Origin: Caldithrix abyssi DSM 13497
GTDB lineage: Bacteria > Calditrichota > Calditrichia > Calditrichales > Calditrichaceae
Length of the DNA: 64,000 bases
Direction: 5' to 3'
NCBI RefSeq assembly: GCF_001886815.1
Contig: NZ_CP018099.1
Span: forward strand, 1,548,501-1,612,500
The position numbers and the translations under genes are program-made. Shown one piece after another: positions 35,313 through 45,032 of this stretch (position 1 is the first letter of the stretch; each line of letters starts with the position of its first letter). Below the pieces are notes generated by a model. That model did no database searches and was not told the origin of the DNA. It worked only from the letters and a program-made list of their open reading frames with translations.

Positions 35313-36854
35313 ATGAAAAAAACCTTTTTCACCGTGCTGATCTGGCTGACCTGCTGGTTGCTATTGCCGGCTCAGAATGGGTTGGGGCAGGTGTTGCCAG
35401 CGAAGGGCGAGCAGCCGCTTCAAACGGATTGGAGCTGGGAGGAATTGCTTGCCCGGGCGCAGCAGAAAGAAACGCTCGCCCGGATTTACGAGTTGCAAAC
35501 CCTGCTTTCTCAGGAAGAGGCCCATTTTCTGTTGACGCAATTGCACCGTCTTTCCGCGCCCCGGGATTTACGCCGGCTCTCGGAACTGGAACGGGAACAA
35601 GCTCAACACGGCGGCGGCTTTTTCGGAATCGTTCCGGATTATTTTGCCGATCCGGACAGCATCCCTCTTCCTGACAATTTTGATCACCTGATCGAGACCG
35701 CCCTTTATCTGGCCCAAATTCGCCAGCAAAACCGTCAGATTGTGTCCGATCCGGCCTTTCAATTTCCCTTAACTTTTCGGGGAGAACCGTTGCCACCCGT
35801 GGAAGGAAAATCCGGGCGGAGCAACCTGCAGCTTTATTTCGATTTTTCGGCCATCGAGGCTGTGCTCCACTTGTTTGCTTTACCGGAAATTTCCTTCCAG
35901 CAAGCCCGTCAGGTCGCCGAGCAGAAAACCTTTCGGGAAATGCTGGCACACCGCCGTAACCTGGGCTACCTGCCGGAGCCTTTACCAGACAGCGACGACC
36001 TGGCACAATTTATTTTCCGGGCGGCCAGCCGGGATCCGGTGGCAGAAATCTGGAAGTGGCTCAATCTCTGGAACAATTTTGGTCTGGCGGATTTGTACTG
36101 CCAGCAAGAAGATTACCATCGTTTAATAAGTTACTGGAAAGCAAATCGCGTGCAATTGGAAACCCTGCTGGTTCGACGTCTGGCGCGTTGCGCCCCGCCA
36201 GAGGTTCAATTCAGCGATACGGTGAGAATTGCCGTGAATTTTGGAATTCGAAGCTGGGCCACCCGCTCCAGTCTGGGCACCAATCTCATTCAATTTAAAG
36301 ACCATTACGCCCTGATGTTGCGCACCATTGCTCACGAAACTTTTCATCGCTTGCAATTAAAAATATGTCCCGTGCCATCTTCTCGAAAAAAGAAACAAAC
36401 GCGGGAATTTGAAGATCTGCTGGCCAGCGATTTTCCGGACAAAGCCGACCGAAAATTCTATCAGGCGTTAAGCTACGTCATGCTGGAAGGCACCGCGACA
36501 TACGTGGGCGGGGTTGATTCAAGCTGGATTTCTCCCGCAAAAATCCGAGCCGGTAAGGCGCTGCTGGAGGAGATGGTGACGGCTCTTTACCAGGGAGAAG
36601 ATGTGGACCGTTACGAAGCGTTGATTAACCAGGGGCTGAAATCCAATGGACCGTTTTATGCCCTTGGTTACGCCATGAGTCAGGCGATTGCCGCCCGTTA
36701 CGGCGCCGAAAAACTGGGACGCCTGTTGCAGCAAGGGAGCCTGGCCTTCTTCAATGAATATCTGCAGGTCCTCTCGGAACAGCAGACGATCCCCGAACTT
36801 CGCTTTTCCAGGGAATTTGTTACTCGTCTTCATTGTCTGCAACGTCAAATGTAG
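35313..36854 (+). CDS. Exported zincin-like peptidase, DUF5700-like
   Basis: 513-aa protein with a signal peptide (residues 1-25). The zinc motif HETFH is at H341-H345 within MLRTIAHETFHRLQ, and a likely third ligand E392 occurs in LEGTATYVGG, 47 residues later, giving a gluzincin-like pattern. The region before it (LYFDFSAIEAVLHLFA) resembles the DUF5700 putative zinc-peptidase family; I am only moderately sure of that name. AGGAG precedes the ATG. It is the fourth co-directional gene in a block that also encodes aspartyl-type and CPBP-type proteases. Confidence 0.75.
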   Translation: MKKTFFTVLIWLTCWLLLPAQNGLGQVLPAKGEQPLQTDWSWEELLARAQQKETLARIYELQTLLSQEEAHFLLTQLHRLSAPRDLRRLSELEREQAQHGGGFFGIVPDYFADPDSIPLPDNFDHLIETALYLAQIRQQNRQIVSDPAFQFPLTFRGEPLPPVEGKSGRSNLQLYFDFSAIEAVLHLFALPEISFQQARQVAEQKTFREMLAHRRNLGYLPEPLPDSDDLAQFIFRAASRDPVAEIWKWLNLWNNFGLADLYCQQEDYHRLISYWKANRVQLETLLVRRLARCAPPEVQFSDTVRIAVNFGIRSWATRSSLGTNLIQFKDHYALMLRTIAHETFHRLQLKICPVPSSRKKKQTREFEDLLASDFPDKADRKFYQALSYVMLEGTATYVGGVDSSWISPAKIRAGKALLEEMVTALYQGEDVDRYEALINQGLKSNGPFYALGYAMSQAIAARYGAEKLGRLLQQGSLAFFNEYLQVLSEQQTIPELRFSREFVTRLHCLQRQM

Positions 36855-37383: not shown

Positions 37384-38298
37384 TCAAACAAATAAATCGG
37401 CCACGGATAAATAGCGTTCTCCCGTATCGTAGTTAAAAGTCAATACTTTTTTAGGCTCTTTGCTGGTCTCTAGTTTTTGGGCCACCGCCGCCAGCGAGGC
37501 GCCGGTACTGATGCCCACCAGAATGCCTTCCTGTCGAGCCGCCTGTTGGGCAAAGCGAAAGGCTTCCTCTTTGCTGATTTGAATGACGTCGTCCAGCAGA
37601 TCGGTTTTCATGATGGCCGGGATAAATCCGGCGCCAATGCCCTGGATGGGATGCGAGCCGGGCTGGCCGCCACTGAGCACCGGCGATTGGTCGGGTTCAA
37701 CGGCAAACACTTTTAAATGCGGCCATTCTTTTTTCAAGATTTCAGCCACACCGGTAATGTGGCCGCCCGTGCCAACGCCGGTAATAAGCCAGTCAAGCCC
37801 ATCCGGGAAATCCTGTAAAATTTCCTGCGCCGTAAATTTTTTGTGTGCCTCAACATTTGCCGGATTTTCAAACTGCATGGGCATCCAGGCATTGGGCAGT
37901 TTGGCCGCCAATTCCTTAGCCCGTTCGATGGCTCCTTTCATGCCCTGCTCTTTAGGCGTCAATTCAAATTCGGCGCCGTAAGCGGCCATCAGACTGCGCC
38001 GTTCCATGGACATGGATTCTGGCATCACCAGGATAATGCGGTAGCCCTTTACGGCGGCCACCATGGCCAGCCCCACGCCCGTATTGCCCGATGTAGGTTC
38101 AACAATTACGCTGTCCTTTTTCAAAATCCCTTTCTGTTCGGCGTCTTCAATCATGGAAAGGGCAATGCGATCTTTGATGCTGCCGCCGGGATTGGTGCGT
38201 TCCAGTTTTAGCCACACTTCATGCCGCCGGTCAAACAGCCGGTTGATGCGCACATGGGGGGTATTTCCGATTTGTTCCAGTATATGATTAAGCTTCAT
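37384..38298 (-). CDS. cysK: Cysteine synthase (O-acetylserine sulfhydrylase)
   Basis: 304-aa fold-type II PLP enzyme making cysteine from O-acetylserine and sulfide. The PLP lysine is K42 in NPGGSIKDR; the substrate loop [12 protein letters not shown] and phosphate-binding [10 protein letters not shown] are complete. Length and motifs fit CysK; CysM is less likely but not excluded. It lies 14 bp after cysE, forming the second gene of a cysE-cysK unit that would make the bienzyme pathway from serine to cysteine, and is preceded by the poly-Cys leader. Confidence 0.95.
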
Positions 38299-38312: not shown

Positions 38313-39158
38313 TTAAATGTGAAACATGAGCGCCTGTTCTTTTTCCAGTTTAGAACGTACGCGTATTTCTGATGTGTTGTAAACGATTGAAAAGGGCGGA
38401 ACGCTTTTGGTTAACCAGACGTTGCCGCCGATGATGCTGTCGTGCCCGATTACCGTTTCGCCGCCTAAAATGGTAGCGCTGGAATAAATGATGACATTGT
38501 CTTCAATGGTCGGGTGCCGTTTCTTTTGCGCCAGAGCTTTAGACACGCTTAAGGCGCCAATCGTAACGCCCTGATAAATTTTTACATTATTGCCAATCTC
38601 CGTTGTTTCACCGATTACAATTCCGGTGGCGTGATCGATGAAAAAGGAATGGCCGATACGGGCGCCAGGATGGATGTCCACCCCGCTCTTGTAATGCGCA
38701 TATTCCGTAATGAGACGCGGAAAAACGGGCACGCCCGCCTCGTAAAATATGTGCGCGATGCGGTAGGCGTAAATGGCGTAAAAACCGGGATAGGCCGAAA
38801 TAACCTCATCCAGCGTCTCGGCCGCCGGATCGCCTTCATAAATGGCCTGCGCATCGCTCCAGAGCAGTTCGTACACATGGGGCAGTTGCTCAAAAAATAT
38901 TTCCGTCACCCCGCCTGCGCTGTTGTGCATGCGTCCCTCCAGCGAGTGCAAAATATGCGTCAGTTCCCTGCGCAAAACCGACATTTTGCCTTTGATTTCA
39001 TCCACGCTCAAATACTGCGCCTGCTCGCTGAAATGCGGGAAAAGCAAGGCCAGCAATTCATCGATAAAATGGTGAACCGCCTTTTTTGAAGGAAAGCTAT
39101 TTAAATGCTCTACATGTTTTTTTAATAGTAACTGACTAAAATTTTTATATGTATTCAT
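38313..39158 (-). CDS. cysE: Serine O-acetyltransferase
   Basis: 281-aa enzyme acetylating serine with acetyl-CoA, the first committed step of cysteine synthesis. An N-terminal helical domain (residues ~1-150) precedes a left-handed beta-helix with [21 protein letters not shown] and [20 protein letters not shown]. The catalytic histidine in DHATG is intact. The long helical N-terminus resembles the EpsC/SrpH type rather than short CysE. The C-terminus ends in LMFHI; terminal Ile is typical for docking into CysK, which is the next gene. A leader peptide and hairpin lie upstream. Confidence 0.95.
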
Positions 39159-39194
39159 CTTTACATCCTTTGATGCTAATTTTTTTATTGCTCA

Positions 39195-39229
39195 CTAAAA
39201 CAAAACGAATGGGCCTGAATAGACCATTC
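39195..39229 (-). promoter_or_regulatory. Putative attenuator hairpin before cysE
   Basis: Read leftward: GAATGGTC..GGCCCATTC can pair over 8 bp with one bulged C and a 6-nt loop (39229-39207), followed by GTTTTGTTTTAG. It lies between the leader peptide stop codon (39287) and the cysE start (39158), the place expected for a terminator controlled by leader translation. The alternative (antiterminator) pairing was not identified by eye. Confidence 0.5.
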
Positions 39230-39286
39230 TACTAAAATGACTTTTTTAAATATTTATGGGAAAAACAGCTTAAATGAACAAGGAAA

Positions 39287-39418
39287 TTATTTACAACAGC
39301 AACAACAGCAGGAAAAGGTATGGAAGGTAAAACGAGGCAGGATAGAGTAAATGGATTGGGCTTGACCGTTTTCTGAAAGCCCGGGACTCAAATTGAGAAA
39401 AACAGCCGTTGATAACAT
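39287..39418 (-). CDS. Poly-cysteine leader peptide of cysE-cysK (43 aa)
   Basis: Small ORF starting MLSTAVFLNLSPGL and ending FHTFSCCCCCCK-stop: six consecutive Cys codons (TGC TGT TGT TGC TGT TGT) followed by one Lys codon and TAA. The ATG at 39418 has AAGGAG 7 bp upstream; a longer in-frame ATG at 39484 lacks this and overlaps the promoter. It lies 128 bp before cysE on the same strand. The run of codons for the end-product amino acid, the strong ribosome site and the downstream hairpin are those of an amino-acid attenuation leader, where scarce Cys-tRNA would stall the ribosome and raise cysE-cysK expression. The peptide itself probably has no other function. Confidence 0.8.
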   Translation of the reverse strand: MLSTAVFLNLSPGLSENGQAQSIYSILPRFTFHTFSCCCCCCK

Positions 39419-39455
39419 GACACACTCCTTCGTGATTGTTTTAACGTTCGCGTGA

Positions 39456-39484
39456 ATTATAAAGAATAAAAACGCCTGATGCAA
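39456..39484 (-). promoter_or_regulatory. Sigma-70-like promoter of the leader-cysE-cysK unit
   Basis: Read leftward: -35 TTGCAT (39484-39479), 17-bp spacer, perfect -10 TATAAT (39461-39456). It lies ~38 bp before the leader peptide ATG, so the transcript would begin near 39449 and carry the leader ORF and hairpin as a ~290-nt leader. Confidence 0.7.
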
Positions 39485-39536
39485 ATAATTATTCCGTAAA
39501 AGAGGGCAGGGGAGCGAGGAATAGTGGAGAAATTAC

Positions 39537-39780
39537 CAAGGCAGCATAGCCGCAACCAAAATCAACTGCAACGCGCGCGAAGTAATTTTCTCGCAGATTA
39601 CGCCAATAATCGCAGAAAATGTTTAAACAAACTGTACTGAGACTAAAGCTAAGCAAATCGGCGCTATTTACGCCCCTTCTCTTTTTTAAAGAGAAGGGGA
39701 TGGGGGATGAGTTTTTAAAACAGCACAAAAATTTTCAAATCCCGCCAGGGCGAGACTAGATCTTCCAGTGGAAGTATCAT
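39537..39780. repeat. Dispersed repeat family A, copy 5 (short subtype)
   Basis: Begins CAAGGCAGCATAGCCGCAACC, then CTCGCAGATTACGCCAATAA, then AAGCTAAGCAAATCGGCGC as in the 26365 copy. It contains a CCCCTTCTCTTTTTTAAAG / AGAAGGGG hairpin and ends with AATCCCGCCAGGGCGAGACT and CTTCCAGTGGAAGTATC. The GGTTGAATG/CATTCAACC tracts are missing. The following ~370 bp to kaiC are AT-rich; they should hold the kai promoter, which I could not assign. Confidence 0.75.
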
Positions 39781-40154
39781 AAAAAGGTATTATTATTGAA
39801 TTTTATTTAAATGGAACTATTGTTTTTATTTAAATTACATAAAATATATTCGTGTCCATTCGTGAAATTCGTGGTTTTTATGCTGACTCATTCATTTAAT
39901 GTCGCTTTTGAGACACTCCGAATAGGCTAATTTCCAAATGAAATCAAACAGTGTTAAAAATGTTAAAAAACTTTATTAAAATTTGTAATAGAAGTAACTA
40001 TTGATTAAATTACAATAAATATTCTTTAAGGGGCAGGCATTAAGTTCTATTTTTAATCCCCGTCCCTGAATTAAAGATGCACTTAATTTTTTCGATAATA
40101 AATAATCCGCATGTGTTTTAACATTCAATAACCTCAAATTCTGGAGGGGTAAGA

Positions 40155-41831
40155 ATGGAAACCGTTTTACTTCCCAAAGCATCAACAGGAATCACCGGAT
40201 TGGATGAAATAACCCGCGGAGGCCTTCCGGCCGGCCGTCCCACCCTGGTGTACGGTGGGCCAGGCACCGGCAAAACGCTTTTTGGATTACAATTTATTGC
40301 GCATGGGGTTAAACAAAACGAAAAGGGCGTGATTTTGACTTTCGAAGAAACCGCAGAAGATCTGATCACCTACGCCAGGTCCATAGGGATTGACCTGGCA
40401 AAAATGATCAAAGAAAAAAGAGTAATTATTGATTATTTCGATTTATCCGGCAACGACGTGCATGAAGCGGGAACGTACGATCTGGAAGGATTATTTTTAA
40501 GGTTGCAGGCCGCCGTCGAGGAGATTGGGGCAAAACGCGTTCATTTAGATACTCTTGAAGCATTATTTGCCTTCTTTGAAAAAGAAGAGATTATCAGAAA
40601 AGAATTTAGCCGTTTATTTCACTGGCTAAAACGGCGTAAATTAACCACGGTTGTAACGGCGGAAATTTCTCTTACCAGCGAAATACCGGTCACCCGTTAC
40701 GGGCTGGAAGAATATGTTAGCGATTGTGTGATTTTTCTGGATAATCGCGTCGAAAAGCAGGTTGCCACGCGTCGCTTGCGCATTTTGAAATATCGTGGGT
40801 CTTCTCATGGGACCAACGAATACCCTTTTTTAATTGATGACGACGGCATTACCGTTTTCCCCATTACTTCTGTGAAGTTAGAATATCAGGTTTCCACAGA
40901 ACGCATCAGTACGGGCATTCCCGATCTGGATCAGATGCTGGACGGGGGGATTTACCGCGGCAGCACTGTTTTAATCTCAGGAACGGCCGGGACGGGTAAG
41001 AGCACCATGGGGATTTCATTTGCCAATGCGGCTTGCGAGCGTAACGAAAAAGCGCTTTATGTTTCTTTTGAAGAATCTCCGGCGCAAATTGTGCGTAACA
41101 TGGCTTCGGTTGGTTTTGATCTGCAAAAACATATCGATTCAGGACTGCTGGAAATTCATTCCCAGCGTCCCACCATGTATGGCCTGGAACTGCATCTGGC
41201 TAAGATGATCGATTTAATAAATAAAGTTTCGCCGTCGGTTATCGTTATCGATCCGATCAATAGCTTTTTAACCGATTCTGAAGAACGAGACGTGAAACTC
41301 ATGCTCATGCGTTTTACGGATTTGTTAAAAGAAAAAAATATCTCCGCTTTTATGCTTAGCTTAACCGGCGGAGGTGAGCACACCGAGCGCACCAATGTGG
41401 CTATTTCATCGATTGTGGATACCTGGATCATTTTGCGCGATGTGGAACAGGCCGGCGAGCGGAACAGAGCTTTGTTTATTTTGAAATCGCGCGGGCACAA
41501 ACATTCTAATCAGGTGCGGGAATTCTTGATTACTTCGCAGGGTATCAAATTGGTCGAAATATATGAAGGCGCGGAAGGTTTGCTGACGGGTTCGGCGCGT
41601 GTTGCCCAGAAAACCAGAGAGGAGATGGTGCTGGAAAATCTAAACCAGGAGCTAAAGCGTCTGGAGAAGTTAATTAGCAGCCGTAAAAAATTATTCGATA
41701 ATCAGATTGAACTATTAAAAGCAAATTTTGAGAGTGAAATAGAAACACTGGAGTTAAAACATAAACAGGTGCTGCAACAGAAGACGAGGCTGGAAGCTCA
41801 ACGACAAATGATTCAAAAATTGCGTTCCTGA
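40155..41831 (+). CDS. kaiC: KaiC-family double-domain ATPase/kinase
   Basis: 558-aa protein with two RecA-like KaiC domains. CI has Walker A GGPGTGKT (34-41) and FEET catalytic glutamates; CII has GTAGTGKST (276-284) and FEES. In CII, ISSIVDT places S418 and S419 where cyanobacterial KaiC has the phosphorylated S431/T432, so autophosphorylation is plausible. The C-terminal ~70 residues form a charged coiled coil not found in clock KaiC and lack the canonical KaiA-binding tail; no kaiA is seen. GGAGG precedes the ATG. kaiB follows 22 bp later, so this begins a kaiC-kaiB-kaiB-like-kinase operon. Confidence 0.94.
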   Translation: METVLLPKASTGITGLDEITRGGLPAGRPTLVYGGPGTGKTLFGLQFIAHGVKQNEKGVILTFEETAEDLITYARSIGIDLAKMIKEKRVIIDYFDLSGNDVHEAGTYDLEGLFLRLQAAVEEIGAKRVHLDTLEALFAFFEKEEIIRKEFSRLFHWLKRRKLTTVVTAEISLTSEIPVTRYGLEEYVSDCVIFLDNRVEKQVATRRLRILKYRGSSHGTNEYPFLIDDDGITVFPITSVKLEYQVSTERISTGIPDLDQMLDGGIYRGSTVLISGTAGTGKSTMGISFANAACERNEKALYVSFEESPAQIVRNMASVGFDLQKHIDSGLLEIHSQRPTMYGLELHLAKMIDLINKVSPSVIVIDPINSFLTDSEERDVKLMLMRFTDLLKEKNISAFMLSLTGGGEHTERTNVAISSIVDTWIILRDVEQAGERNRALFILKSRGHKHSNQVREFLITSQGIKLVEIYEGAEGLLTGSARVAQKTREEMVLENLNQELKRLEKLISSRKKLFDNQIELLKANFESEIETLELKHKQVLQQKTRLEAQRQMIQKLRS

Positions 41832-41853
41832 AAATAAGAAAGAAAGGAACAAT

Positions 41854-42168
41854 ATGTCTGTAAATAAGCAAAGAGAGGTCCCGGCATCGGTTCAAAAATG
41901 GATTTTTGAGTTGTACATTGCCGGTCAGTCGCCTCGTTCATTACAGGCCATCGCCAATCTTAAATTAATATGCGAAAAAAATTTAAAAGAAAATTACGAG
42001 TTGACAGTTATCGATGTTACGGAAAATCCCTCTCTGGCCAGAGTAAAACAGATCATCGCTCTGCCTACCTTGATCCGGTTGAGTCCCTCGCCGGAACGCA
42101 AGGTTGTGGGCGATTTATCGGAACTTGACAGAGCAGCGGCAATCCTGGAATTGGTCAATGGAAAATAA
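41854..42168 (+). CDS. kaiB: KaiB circadian clock-like protein
   Basis: 104-aa thioredoxin-like KaiB. The N-terminal strand FELYIAGQSPRSLQAIANL, followed by ELTVIDVTENPSLA and the cis-proline region IALPTLIRLSPSPERKVVGDLS, matches KaiB closely. It should bind KaiC in its refolded state. AGAAAGGA precedes the ATG. Its stop codon overlaps the next gene by 11 bp, so the two KaiB-type proteins are translated together. Confidence 0.94.
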   Translation: MSVNKQREVPASVQKWIFELYIAGQSPRSLQAIANLKLICEKNLKENYELTVIDVTENPSLARVKQIIALPTLIRLSPSPERKVVGDLSELDRAAAILELVNGK

Positions 42169-42514
42169 ACTAAAATCGGGAAACGTTTCTATGCTGTTAT
42201 TGGTAAGCGGCATGACCGAGCGCTCATTAAAGGCAATCAAATTGGTGCGTCAGGTTTGTGATCAATTTTTAGCGCATTATAAACTAACGGTTCTTGACGT
42301 TTACCGGGACGCTTCGCCGGAGAGCCAGCGCGTTTTACCCGTTGCCCCTATGTTAATCGGTAATTTGACGGAGGAGCTGGTGGCCAAAATTAAACAACAG
42401 GCCAAAGAACAAAACTTTTTTCTCCCGGTGATAAGAGCCCAATTCATTTCGGTTGATGAATGGAGAGGAAAGCGAGATGAGTCAGGAGCTGGCACAAAAG
42501 ATAAGAATTCTTGA
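42158..42514 (+). CDS. Second, divergent KaiB-like protein
   Basis: 118 aa, starting at ATG 42158 within the end of kaiB (MENKLKSGNVSMLLLVSGMTERS). The thioredoxin-like core aligns with KaiB (LLVSGMTERSLKAIKLVRQVCDQFLAHYKLTVLDV), but the LPTLIR segment is replaced by LPVAPMLIGNL and the C-terminal part differs. A longer in-frame start within kaiB is less likely because it would duplicate kaiB coding sequence. It overlaps the kinase gene by 38 bp. It may be a KaiB paralogue that acts as adaptor between KaiC and the kinase, analogous to KaiB-like domains fused to SasA; this is inference. Confidence 0.8.
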   Translation: MENKLKSGNVSMLLLVSGMTERSLKAIKLVRQVCDQFLAHYKLTVLDVYRDASPESQRVLPVAPMLIGNLTEELVAKIKQQAKEQNFFLPVIRAQFISVDEWRGKRDESGAGTKDKNS

Positions 42515-45032
42515 AGAGCGTCTTAAAGAAGCAGAGGGCACGTTAGAGGCTATCCGCAAGGGTAAGATCGACGCGATTGTCGTTCAGGGCAAAGAACTGC
42601 CGGAGATTTACACTTTAAAAAGCGCTGATTTTACCTACCGTGTTTTAATCGAACGTATGAACGAAGGTGCCGCCATCCTTTCCAAAGAAGGCATTGTACT
42701 TTATTCCAATAATAAACTGACGGAAATCCTGGGCACCAACAAAAAGGAGCTTGTCGGGAATTTTTTAAGCGATTTTTTGCTGGCCTCAGAGAGAAAAAAA
42801 TTGGACATTATTTTAAAAAAGGGAATAAAGCAGGCCATCAATCAAAAGGTCTTTTATGTTCGTCCGCATGACGGTCAATTGAAATCACTATTGTTTTCCG
42901 CCAATCCCATGCCCGCGGAGAGCGGCGCCGATATCGGTTTGATTGTTACCGACTTAAGCGAGGTGGAAGAAAAAGAGAAATTGCAAAAGCTTCAGGTTAA
43001 GCTGGAAGAGATGGTGGTGGATCGAACGCGACGCCTCCAGGAAGCGCACGAAGAACTAAAAGCGATGAATGAACGACTGGCGCACGAAATTGAAGAGCAT
43101 AAAAGAACGGAACAAGAATTAATCCGTAAAGAACAGGAAATTGACGAGATCATCAACTCGGCCGCCGAGGGCATTCTGGGCGTCGATAAAAACGGCGTGT
43201 GTACGTTTGTCAATAACAGCTGCCTGACCTTGCTGGGGTATGATTCGCGCGACGAGGTGGTGGGTAAAAAGGTTCAGAAAATTCTTGCTCCGCGCTGTGA
43301 TATGAACACGCCCTGTCCGGAAAAAGACAGCAAAATATTTAAAGCGATTAAAGACGGTACCGTGCAAAGCGCTACCGATATGTTTTTCAGGAAAAAGGAC
43401 GGCCGTTATTTCCCGGTCGGCTATCTGGTGCATCCGATAAGATCAGATTCCAGAACACGGGGTGCGGTAATTTCGTTCTGGGATTTTTCACAGCAGCGCG
43501 CCCTGGAAGAAAAATTGAAGCAGATGGCCAAGGTTCTGGAACAATCACTGGATTTGATTGTCATTACGGATGTGGATGGCACTATCGAGTATGTCAATCC
43601 AGCTTTTGAAAAAAACACGGGCTATACGCTTGGAGAGTTGAAAGACAAAACGCCAAAAATCTTACTCAGCGAGGATAACAGCCCAGACTTTTGTCAGAAA
43701 CTATTGGAAAATCTTAAAGAGGGTAAAAATTGGCAGGGCACCATTACCTGTAAACGGAAAAACGGTGAAGTGTTTAAGTGTTTGACGGTGTTTTTCCCGA
43801 TTCGAAACGATTCCGGAGAAATTATTAATTATGCTTTTGTACAACGAGATATCTCGGCCGAGGAACAGCTAAGAGAGCAGATGTACCAGGCGCAAAAACT
43901 GGAGAGTCTGGGCAAGTTAACCGGCGGGGTGGCCCACGATTTTAACAATTTATTGACTGTTATTAACGGCTTTTCAAAATTAGGCCTGGAGCTGATCAAT
44001 AAAGATCATCCGCTGCACAGCTATTTGCAGCAAATTTACAGAGCGGGGGAACGAGCTTCCCATTTGACCTCGCAATTGTTAACTTTTAGCCGTAAACAGG
44101 TCATCTCCCCGCAAAAAGTTAATATCAATGAAATTTTTAAAGAAACGCAAAAAATGCTTCAACGATTAATCGGCGAGGACATCAAACTGATTTTTCAGCT
44201 TGATGAAAAGGTTAAACCGATTAAAGCGGACGTAACGCAAATTGACCAGATTTTAATGAACCTGGTGGTCAACGCCCGCGACGCCATTCTGGAAAAAGAA
44301 AACGCCGAAGAAAAGAAAATTGTCGTTTCAACCCGCCAGGTGGAAGTCTCGCAAAAAATGGCCGATAAATATCTTGATTTAAATCCTGGCCCCCATGTTC
44401 TAATCGAAGTCAAAGATACGGGCATCGGAATGACGGATGAAGTTAAAGAACATATTTTCGAACCCTTTTTTACCACTAAAAAAGAAGGGCGGGGAACAGG
44501 GCTTGGGCTTTCTACCGTTTACGGAATTATCAAACAAAATCAGGCATTTATTCAAGTAAAGAGTAAGCCGGGCGTGGGCACTACTTTTTCCATTTATTGG
44601 CCCAACTATCTGCAGGAAGACCAAAATCAACCAGAGCAGAAAGAAGCGCAGTTCGCACAGGGCCGTCAGCAGCTGGTTTTAATCGTGGAAGATGATCCTG
44701 AAGTGCGCAGCCTGCTGGAGGCATCCCTCAAAAAACTGAACTACAGAGTTATGACCGCCGCTAACGGCGCAGAAGCGCTGAAAATCATAAACAGTGCAAA
44801 AGATGAAATTGACGCGATCATTACCGACCTGGTGATGCCTGAAATAGACGGCGTAACCCTGGCGAAAAAAGTCAGGGAAATGGGCATTGCCGTTCCCGTC
44901 CTCTTTGGAACGGGTTACGCCGACGAACATCTTGAAAAGATTGTGGACTCCGATTACAGCCGCTTCATTCTCCAAAAGCCCTACAGGCTGGAAGAGCTGG
45001 CTAAAAAATTAAATGAGGTCCTGGGAAATTAA
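42477..45032 (+). CDS. Kai-operon hybrid sensor histidine kinase (three PAS, HisKA, HATPase, receiver)
   Basis: 851-aa soluble protein. A short N-terminal coiled coil, PAS at ~52-165, coiled coil ~165-215, PAS at ~222-340 and ~345-465, then the HisKA domain with phospho-acceptor H487 in GGVAHDFNN. The HATPase ([20 protein letters not shown]) and a C-terminal receiver with D784 in IITDLVMPEIDG follow. No membrane segment, so it senses an internal signal. Start at 42477 is chosen over ATG 42456 because GGAGAGG lies 8 bp before it. Being the last overlapping gene of the kai operon, it is the probable output kinase; no SasA-type KaiB-like domain is fused. Confidence 0.9.
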   Translation: MSQELAQKIRILEERLKEAEGTLEAIRKGKIDAIVVQGKELPEIYTLKSADFTYRVLIERMNEGAAILSKEGIVLYSNNKLTEILGTNKKELVGNFLSDFLLASERKKLDIILKKGIKQAINQKVFYVRPHDGQLKSLLFSANPMPAESGADIGLIVTDLSEVEEKEKLQKLQVKLEEMVVDRTRRLQEAHEELKAMNERLAHEIEEHKRTEQELIRKEQEIDEIINSAAEGILGVDKNGVCTFVNNSCLTLLGYDSRDEVVGKKVQKILAPRCDMNTPCPEKDSKIFKAIKDGTVQSATDMFFRKKDGRYFPVGYLVHPIRSDSRTRGAVISFWDFSQQRALEEKLKQMAKVLEQSLDLIVITDVDGTIEYVNPAFEKNTGYTLGELKDKTPKILLSEDNSPDFCQKLLENLKEGKNWQGTITCKRKNGEVFKCLTVFFPIRNDSGEIINYAFVQRDISAEEQLREQMYQAQKLESLGKLTGGVAHDFNNLLTVINGFSKLGLELINKDHPLHSYLQQIYRAGERASHLTSQLLTFSRKQVISPQKVNINEIFKETQKMLQRLIGEDIKLIFQLDEKVKPIKADVTQIDQILMNLVVNARDAILEKENAEEKKIVVSTRQVEVSQKMADKYLDLNPGPHVLIEVKDTGIGMTDEVKEHIFEPFFTTKKEGRGTGLGLSTVYGIIKQNQAFIQVKSKPGVGTTFSIYWPNYLQEDQNQPEQKEAQFAQGRQQLVLIVEDDPEVRSLLEASLKKLNYRVMTAANGAEALKIINSAKDEIDAIITDLVMPEIDGVTLAKKVREMGIAVPVLFGTGYADEHLEKIVDSDYSRFILQKPYRLEELAKKLNEVLGN

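Follow-up and report, generated by a model that had tools for sequence, protein, structure and literature searches.

A cysteine-rich leader peptide upstream of cysE-cysK in Caldithrix abyssi and its probable role in cysteine-sensing attenuation

A short open reading frame (ORF) ending in six consecutive cysteine codons precedes the cysE-cysK unit of Caldithrix abyssi, and we propose, with a probability of roughly 0.85 for this reading taken as a whole, that it encodes the leader peptide of a cysteine-sensing attenuator controlling both genes. The 43-codon ORF runs on the minus strand from 39418 (ATG) to 39287 (TAA) of the window, by which we mean the whole 64,000-nucleotide stretch of DNA that was analysed, and was read from the sequence and the ORF list as MLSTAVFLNLSPGLSENGQAQSIYSILPRFTFHTFSCCCCCCK followed by a stop codon. 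A Shine-Dalgarno motif, AAGGAG, is found six bases before the ATG (39430..39425, minus), and the peptide ends Cys6-Lys-stop, with the cysteine codons TGC TGT TGT TGC TGT TGT at 39310..39293 (minus) and the stop codon 128 nt from the cysE ATG at 39158; the earlier note's description of the ORF, its length, good ribosome-binding site, terminal residues and distance to cysE, is exact in every respect. Upstream, a promoter-like TTTGCA-18-TATAAT (39485..39456, minus) about 40 nt before the leader ATG matches 10 of 12 consensus positions, in a promoter scan that by itself did not exceed the shuffle expectation. A family search gave no Pfam or NCBIfam match for the peptide, and an Rfam scan of 38900..39900 for a T-box or riboswitch returned no match up to E 5.

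The first of the two proposed target genes, cysE (38313..39158, minus), encodes a serine O-acetyltransferase that passes the cut-off of NF041874 (serine O-acetyltransferase EpsC), with a TIGR01172 match (E 2.7e-48) that falls under that model's cut-off, and its product is 57-83% identical to those of relatives in the family. The second, cysK (37384..38298, minus), encodes cysteine synthase A (TIGR01139, 411.9 bits, above cut-off) and follows after a gap of 14 nt; leader, cysE and cysK share a strand. We infer that the leader would be transcribed from the promoter just upstream, translated from its own Shine-Dalgarno motif, and regulatory through stalling of the ribosome: when charged tRNA-Cys is scarce the ribosome would stall in the Cys6 tract at the leader's end, and when it is plentiful the ribosome would reach the stop codon and depart.

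The neighbourhood of the locus contains several further features. Divergent from cysE is a KaiC-KaiB-kinase cluster outside the cyanobacteria (40155-45032, plus). It encodes a KaiC ATPase with a double domain, a protein with a KaiB domain (41854-42168) and a PAS histidine kinase that also has a receiver domain, and it includes a further small ORF that matched no Pfam family. The cysE-kaiC intergenic region holds a palindrome, CCCCTTCTCTTTTTTAAAGAGAAGGGG then ATGGGGGATGAG (39673-39711), which looks like another dispersed element, and part of a dispersed repeat, TTCGTGTCCATTCGTG, lies at 39849-39864 (plus), which the genome holds 16 times exactly and 9 times with one mismatch, against 0 for the reversed control. 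Near cysK, on the opposite strand, a DUF5700 putative zinc-dependent peptidase is encoded at 35313-36854 (plus).

Runs of cysteine codons are rare in this genome. Only two places in the 4.98-Mb single-contig genome carry at least five in-frame TGY codons, the leader included, and the second (C1:1511555) is antisense to the poly-Gln tract of a cellular protein. We read 17 other TGYx4 places in C. abyssi, and every one fell within a longer ORF read in a different frame or on the other strand, with no sign among them of a poly-Cys regulon elsewhere in the genome; among the TGYx4 loci examined in several genomes, free-standing poly-Cys short ORFs were found only before cysE (G003, G254). This rarity, together with the location of the other TGYx4 places inside longer ORFs, makes a free-standing, Cys-ended short ORF before cysE hard to obtain by accident. 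The Cys run could instead be a by-product of chance or of a microsatellite, since its antisense reads CAA/CAG as in a poly-Gln tract: the genome's sole other long TGY run is antisense to poly-Gln, and a plus-strand ORF reads QQQQQQ across the leader's Cys tract. We consider this extremely improbable, because in relatives the Cys codons occupy the same strand and place, are interrupted and use other codons, and because the strand bias over 136-140 cysE upstream regions is strong (below). The Cys clusters of the same genus are interrupted differently (CCPCHK, CCCCPVCK), so the run is not a slipping microsatellite, and the conservation in G002, G003 and G005 means that such an origin is already disfavoured.

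Leaders with terminal cysteine clusters were detected before the cysE orthologues of both readable other genomes of the genus. The leader of G002, MFYSKLFLNFSPGTASSVHYFQFSFTLPKALPFSFRCFNFCCPCHK, has the C-terminus CCPCHK and the Shine-Dalgarno motif AGGAG, with a promoter-like AATAATTATTTGCA-18-TAGTAT upstream of it as judged by eye, and that of G003, MSDFLRFSSAEGSLDNPEKGLFQSVFSAHTPNRIPSNLPVRSFLFRCCCCPVCK, has the C-terminus CCCCPVCK and the motif AAGGAG. In another genus of the same family (G005), the ORF before cysE ends RGNCCC at its stop codon. The search of related genomes for Cys-ended short ORFs that the earlier note had put forward as a check thus came out positive in the genus and in a second genus of the same family, and the putative regulatory Cys codons are conserved in the leaders of the orthologous operons of G002, G003 and G005. 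Elsewhere in the family, G010 has a cysE without a Cys leader, and no Cys leader was seen within the short sequence upstream of each cysE in G004 and G013. Two genomes, G001 and G008, stand outside the leader comparison because of contig ends, the cysE contig of G001 starting within the gene. G001 has two candidate poly-Cys places, both rejected as leaders since they fall in other genes.

The peptides of the genus change fast in length and sequence, with N-terminal likeness only in traces and the terminal Cys cluster kept. This pattern bears on whether the ORF might be a functional Cys-rich small protein, with a metal-binding or redox role, and not a regulatory leader. Such a protein would be in keeping with the Shine-Dalgarno motif and with the partly similar N-termini of C. 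abyssi (FLNLSPG) and G002 (FLNFSPG), but length and sequence outside the Cys cluster vary among relatives, the peptide is without a family match, it has no sequence relationship to the Cys-ended leaders that precede cysE in other phyla, and attenuator hardware is present in relatives; we regard it as very unlikely.

Beyond the family, cysE loci were drawn from the species genomes and from a draw of 247 genomes from the phylum of G063, giving 136 deduplicated cysE upstream regions of Bacteroidota and Ignavibacteria, or 140 with C. abyssi, G002, G003 and G005 added. Cysteine codon runs were strongly biased towards the cysE strand: among the 136 regions, TGYx3 runs numbered 23 forward, whereas the controls gave 2 (reverse complement), 9 (reversed sequence) and 3 (complement); for TGYx4 runs the figures were 12 forward and 1, 0 and 0 in the same three controls. 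Short ORFs with at least four Cys in six codons occurred 16 times forward in the 140 regions, against 0 in the reverse complement, 2 in the reversed sequence and 0 in the complement, and at the loosest Cys-cluster setting the reversed-sequence control still yielded 14 against 32 forward. Short ORFs with terminal Cys runs were thus found before cysE in many Ignavibacteria and Bacteroidota, extending the outcome of the same check well past the genus. Example leaders are L208 (MKTFASISHSSFSLQLNCCRSNNCACCCC), L209 (MIALIETYRNFLRTDSARESSSACTALCCCC), L221 (MIATLSSFQTEAQSKSFTLFNGNCCCCLCCCCSFQA) and L074 (MQNSYIHGCCCCPAERKGLTAVLGR), each ending in a stop codon. The L221 leader has two Cys4 blocks (CCCCLCCCC), and in L238 and L250 related short ORFs with the C-termini CCMCFCC and CYMCMCC lie some 155-190 nt upstream of cysE and may form a third leader family. 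Most of the 140 regions have no recognisable Cys leader, so other control of cysE exists.

The leaders fall into two architectures. In many Bacteroidota leaders the peptide continues past the Cys run as a tail, and both an intrinsic terminator and an antiterminator arm are present; leaders of the Caldithrix and Ignavibacteria type end with or near the Cys run. Of the 23 leader regions, 8 had a strict intrinsic terminator downstream of the Cys run and ahead of cysE, against 5 of 117 leaderless ones (Fisher p 1.2e-4); among the 13 leaders with at least four codons after the Cys run the number was 7, against the same 5 of 117 (p 1e-5); leader classes for this test were defined by tail length only, as defining them by terminators would be circular. 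Between the RNA that follows the Cys codons and the 5' side of the terminator, pairing beat shuffles in most of eight Bacteroidota loci (combined p 1.3e-7; L054 p 0.002, L069 p <0.001, L073 p 0.007, L218 p 0.014, L074 p 0.034, L065 p 0.054) and was not significant singly in L050 and L056. In seven of these loci, 9-17 nt separate the last Cys codon from the start of the antiterminator arm; in L074 the distance is 2 nt. As predicted from their sequences, the terminator-bearing Bacteroidota cysE leaders have the textbook geometry of classical attenuation, in which a ribosome stalled at the Cys codons would free the antiterminator arm and one reaching the stop codon would cover it, the arm mostly beginning at what would be about one ribosome footprint past the Cys codons.

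Caldithrix itself is different at this step. From the Cys codons to cysE, terminator-less leaders had structure z-scores of -1.7 to 1.6 against -0.9 to -5.5 for terminator-bearing ones, and the RNA of Caldithrix and the other terminator-less leaders was no more structured than shuffles over that span. The nearest thing to an intrinsic terminator is a weak hairpin, GAATGGTCTATTCAGGCCCATTC then GTTTTGTTTT (39229..39207, minus; -6.8 kcal/mol). Were this hairpin the terminator, Caldithrix too would use classical transcription attenuation, in keeping with the T-rich GTTTTGTTTT that trails it, with a terminator scan that found 3 against 1.3 expected, and with the clear terminators of the Bacteroidota relatives. 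The hairpin reaches only -6.8 kcal/mol, however, no antiterminator arm exceeds what shuffles give (76% and 74% of them do as well), and it has no clear counterpart in G002 or G003; we judge this reading improbable, and for Caldithrix an intrinsic terminator with antiterminator found no support. The earlier note's reading of the ORF as an attenuation leader, by analogy with those for Trp, His and Leu, is supported with a qualification: the Cys leader is conserved and several Bacteroidota have the terminator and antiterminator, but in Caldithrix these are absent or weak, and the step that follows the stall is probably unlike that paradigm.

Control may instead act on translation, with the leader or spacer RNA hiding the cysE ribosome-binding site until a Cys-stalled ribosome exposes it. 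Cys leaders of M. smegmatis have been reported as translation attenuators (PMC13236596), and in L206 and L221 the region of the Cys codons is able to base-pair close to the start of cysE; the L221 duplex (-29.4 against a shuffle mean of -21.1) is better than 99.5% of shuffles. For C. abyssi, however, 79% of shuffles pair as well between the Cys region and the cysE start, most short-tail leaders pair with the cysE start no better than shuffles, and Caldithrix and the short-tail leaders have no excess RNA structure. As a general device against the ribosome-binding site, base-pairing between the Cys codons and the start of cysE was rejected save in L221, a locus that may, by its predicted duplex, use translational control; for Caldithrix we hold translational attenuation to be possible but doubtful.

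The effector step that we favour most for Caldithrix, tentatively and at a little under even odds, is Rho-dependent termination of the tna type, because no strong terminator or antiterminator was found, the leader is C-rich and Rho is encoded in the C. abyssi genome. With enough cysteine, Rho would load onto the leader RNA, which is C-rich and unstructured, and end transcription before cysE; under cysteine shortage, a ribosome waiting at the Cys tract and the stop codon would block Rho, and cysE-cysK would be transcribed. A C-rich, G-poor, YC-rich stretch within the leader ORF (39372..39311, minus) is, by base composition, a candidate rut-like region for Rho loading. By its excess of C over G, 39298-39372 ranks among the top 0.8% of stretches of equal length in the 64-kb window, and the leader ORFs of C. 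abyssi, G002 and G003 have C>G in the top 1-5% of local stretches, a significant though modest enrichment that does not by itself imply Rho. Matches to the Rho RNA-binding domain occur in the C. abyssi genome at G000:C1:796464 (E 2.8e-36) and G000:C1:3027222 (E 1.2e-15), and judging from these two places the genome may encode a second Rho-like protein. The rest of the probability falls to an effector other than Rho, translational control or the weak hairpin.

The earlier note had suggested that a Cys leader on this unit may be undescribed in the lineage, and this suggestion has stood: Cys leaders are known in Actinobacteria and Rhodobacterales, and in the open-licence literature we found none described before cysE in Calditrichota, Ignavibacteria or Bacteroidota. 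The main text of a genome-wide attenuation survey contains no cysE, cysK or "Bacteroid-" (PMC2965389), and a Bacteroides transcriptome paper mentions attenuation-like short ORFs in general terms only (PMC7366714). We suggest, at even odds, that throughout Calditrichota, Ignavibacteria and Bacteroidota sulfur assimilation is under an old and widespread control, so far undescribed, by Cys leaders that precede cysE. The control would take a classical terminator/antiterminator form in Bacteroidota; the form in Calditrichota and Ignavibacteria would lack RNA structure and probably depend on Rho, the ribosome at the terminal Cys tract being itself the switch there. Such a system would extend cysteine attenuation to phyla for which none was found described, explain small ORFs that annotation ignores, and suggest a cysteine reporter for these lineages, and its natural variants with and without terminator hardware would offer material for asking how an effector step changes while the sensor stays.

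Proteobacterial attenuators of the Trp, His and Leu operons have leaders rich in the end-product amino acid. The cysE leaders share this feature, and the Bacteroidota loci share the terminator and antiterminator as well; the amino acid differs, being Cys, and in Caldithrix the terminator and antiterminator are absent or weak. In the E. coli tna operon, a ribosome held at the end of the tnaC leader ORF keeps Rho from terminating transcription ahead of the structural genes, as the held ribosome would in the step proposed for Caldithrix. TnaC senses free Trp by nascent-peptide arrest, whereas the Caldithrix stall would come from missing charged tRNA. Also close are the poly-Cys short ORFs of mycobacteria and other Actinobacteria. 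A comparative prediction (PMC1262725) placed leaders with Cys runs ahead of cys operons in Mycobacterium, Propionibacterium and Bifidobacterium; it saw no clear terminators and suggested Rho. According to PMC9094748 and PMC13236596, Canestrari et al. 2020 reported mycobacterial Cys leaders to be Cys-responsive attenuators. These resemble the Caldithrix leader in having the Cys run near the stop codon, before cysteine-metabolism genes and, in the mycobacterial case, with no obvious terminator, and differ in phylum, in targets (cys operon, cbs) and in their unrelated peptides. The mycobacterial short ORFs are leaderless according to the title of the paper, whereas the Caldithrix leader has a Shine-Dalgarno motif; such motifs, predicted in all three members of the genus, and the promoter-like site about 40 nt upstream argue against a leaderless mRNA start. 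In Rhodobacterales, uORFC-8-2 before cysS likewise has tandem Cys codons, with terminator-based attenuation proposed (PMC8632094), but its target is a cysteinyl-tRNA synthetase, its two Cys codons are usually at positions 14 and 15, and it belongs to the Alphaproteobacteria. The Bacteroidota cysE leaders are nearer to uORFC-8-2 than the Caldithrix leader is, and in Caldithrix we very probably see a real Cys-sensing leader, a known kind of control in a new lineage and arrangement.
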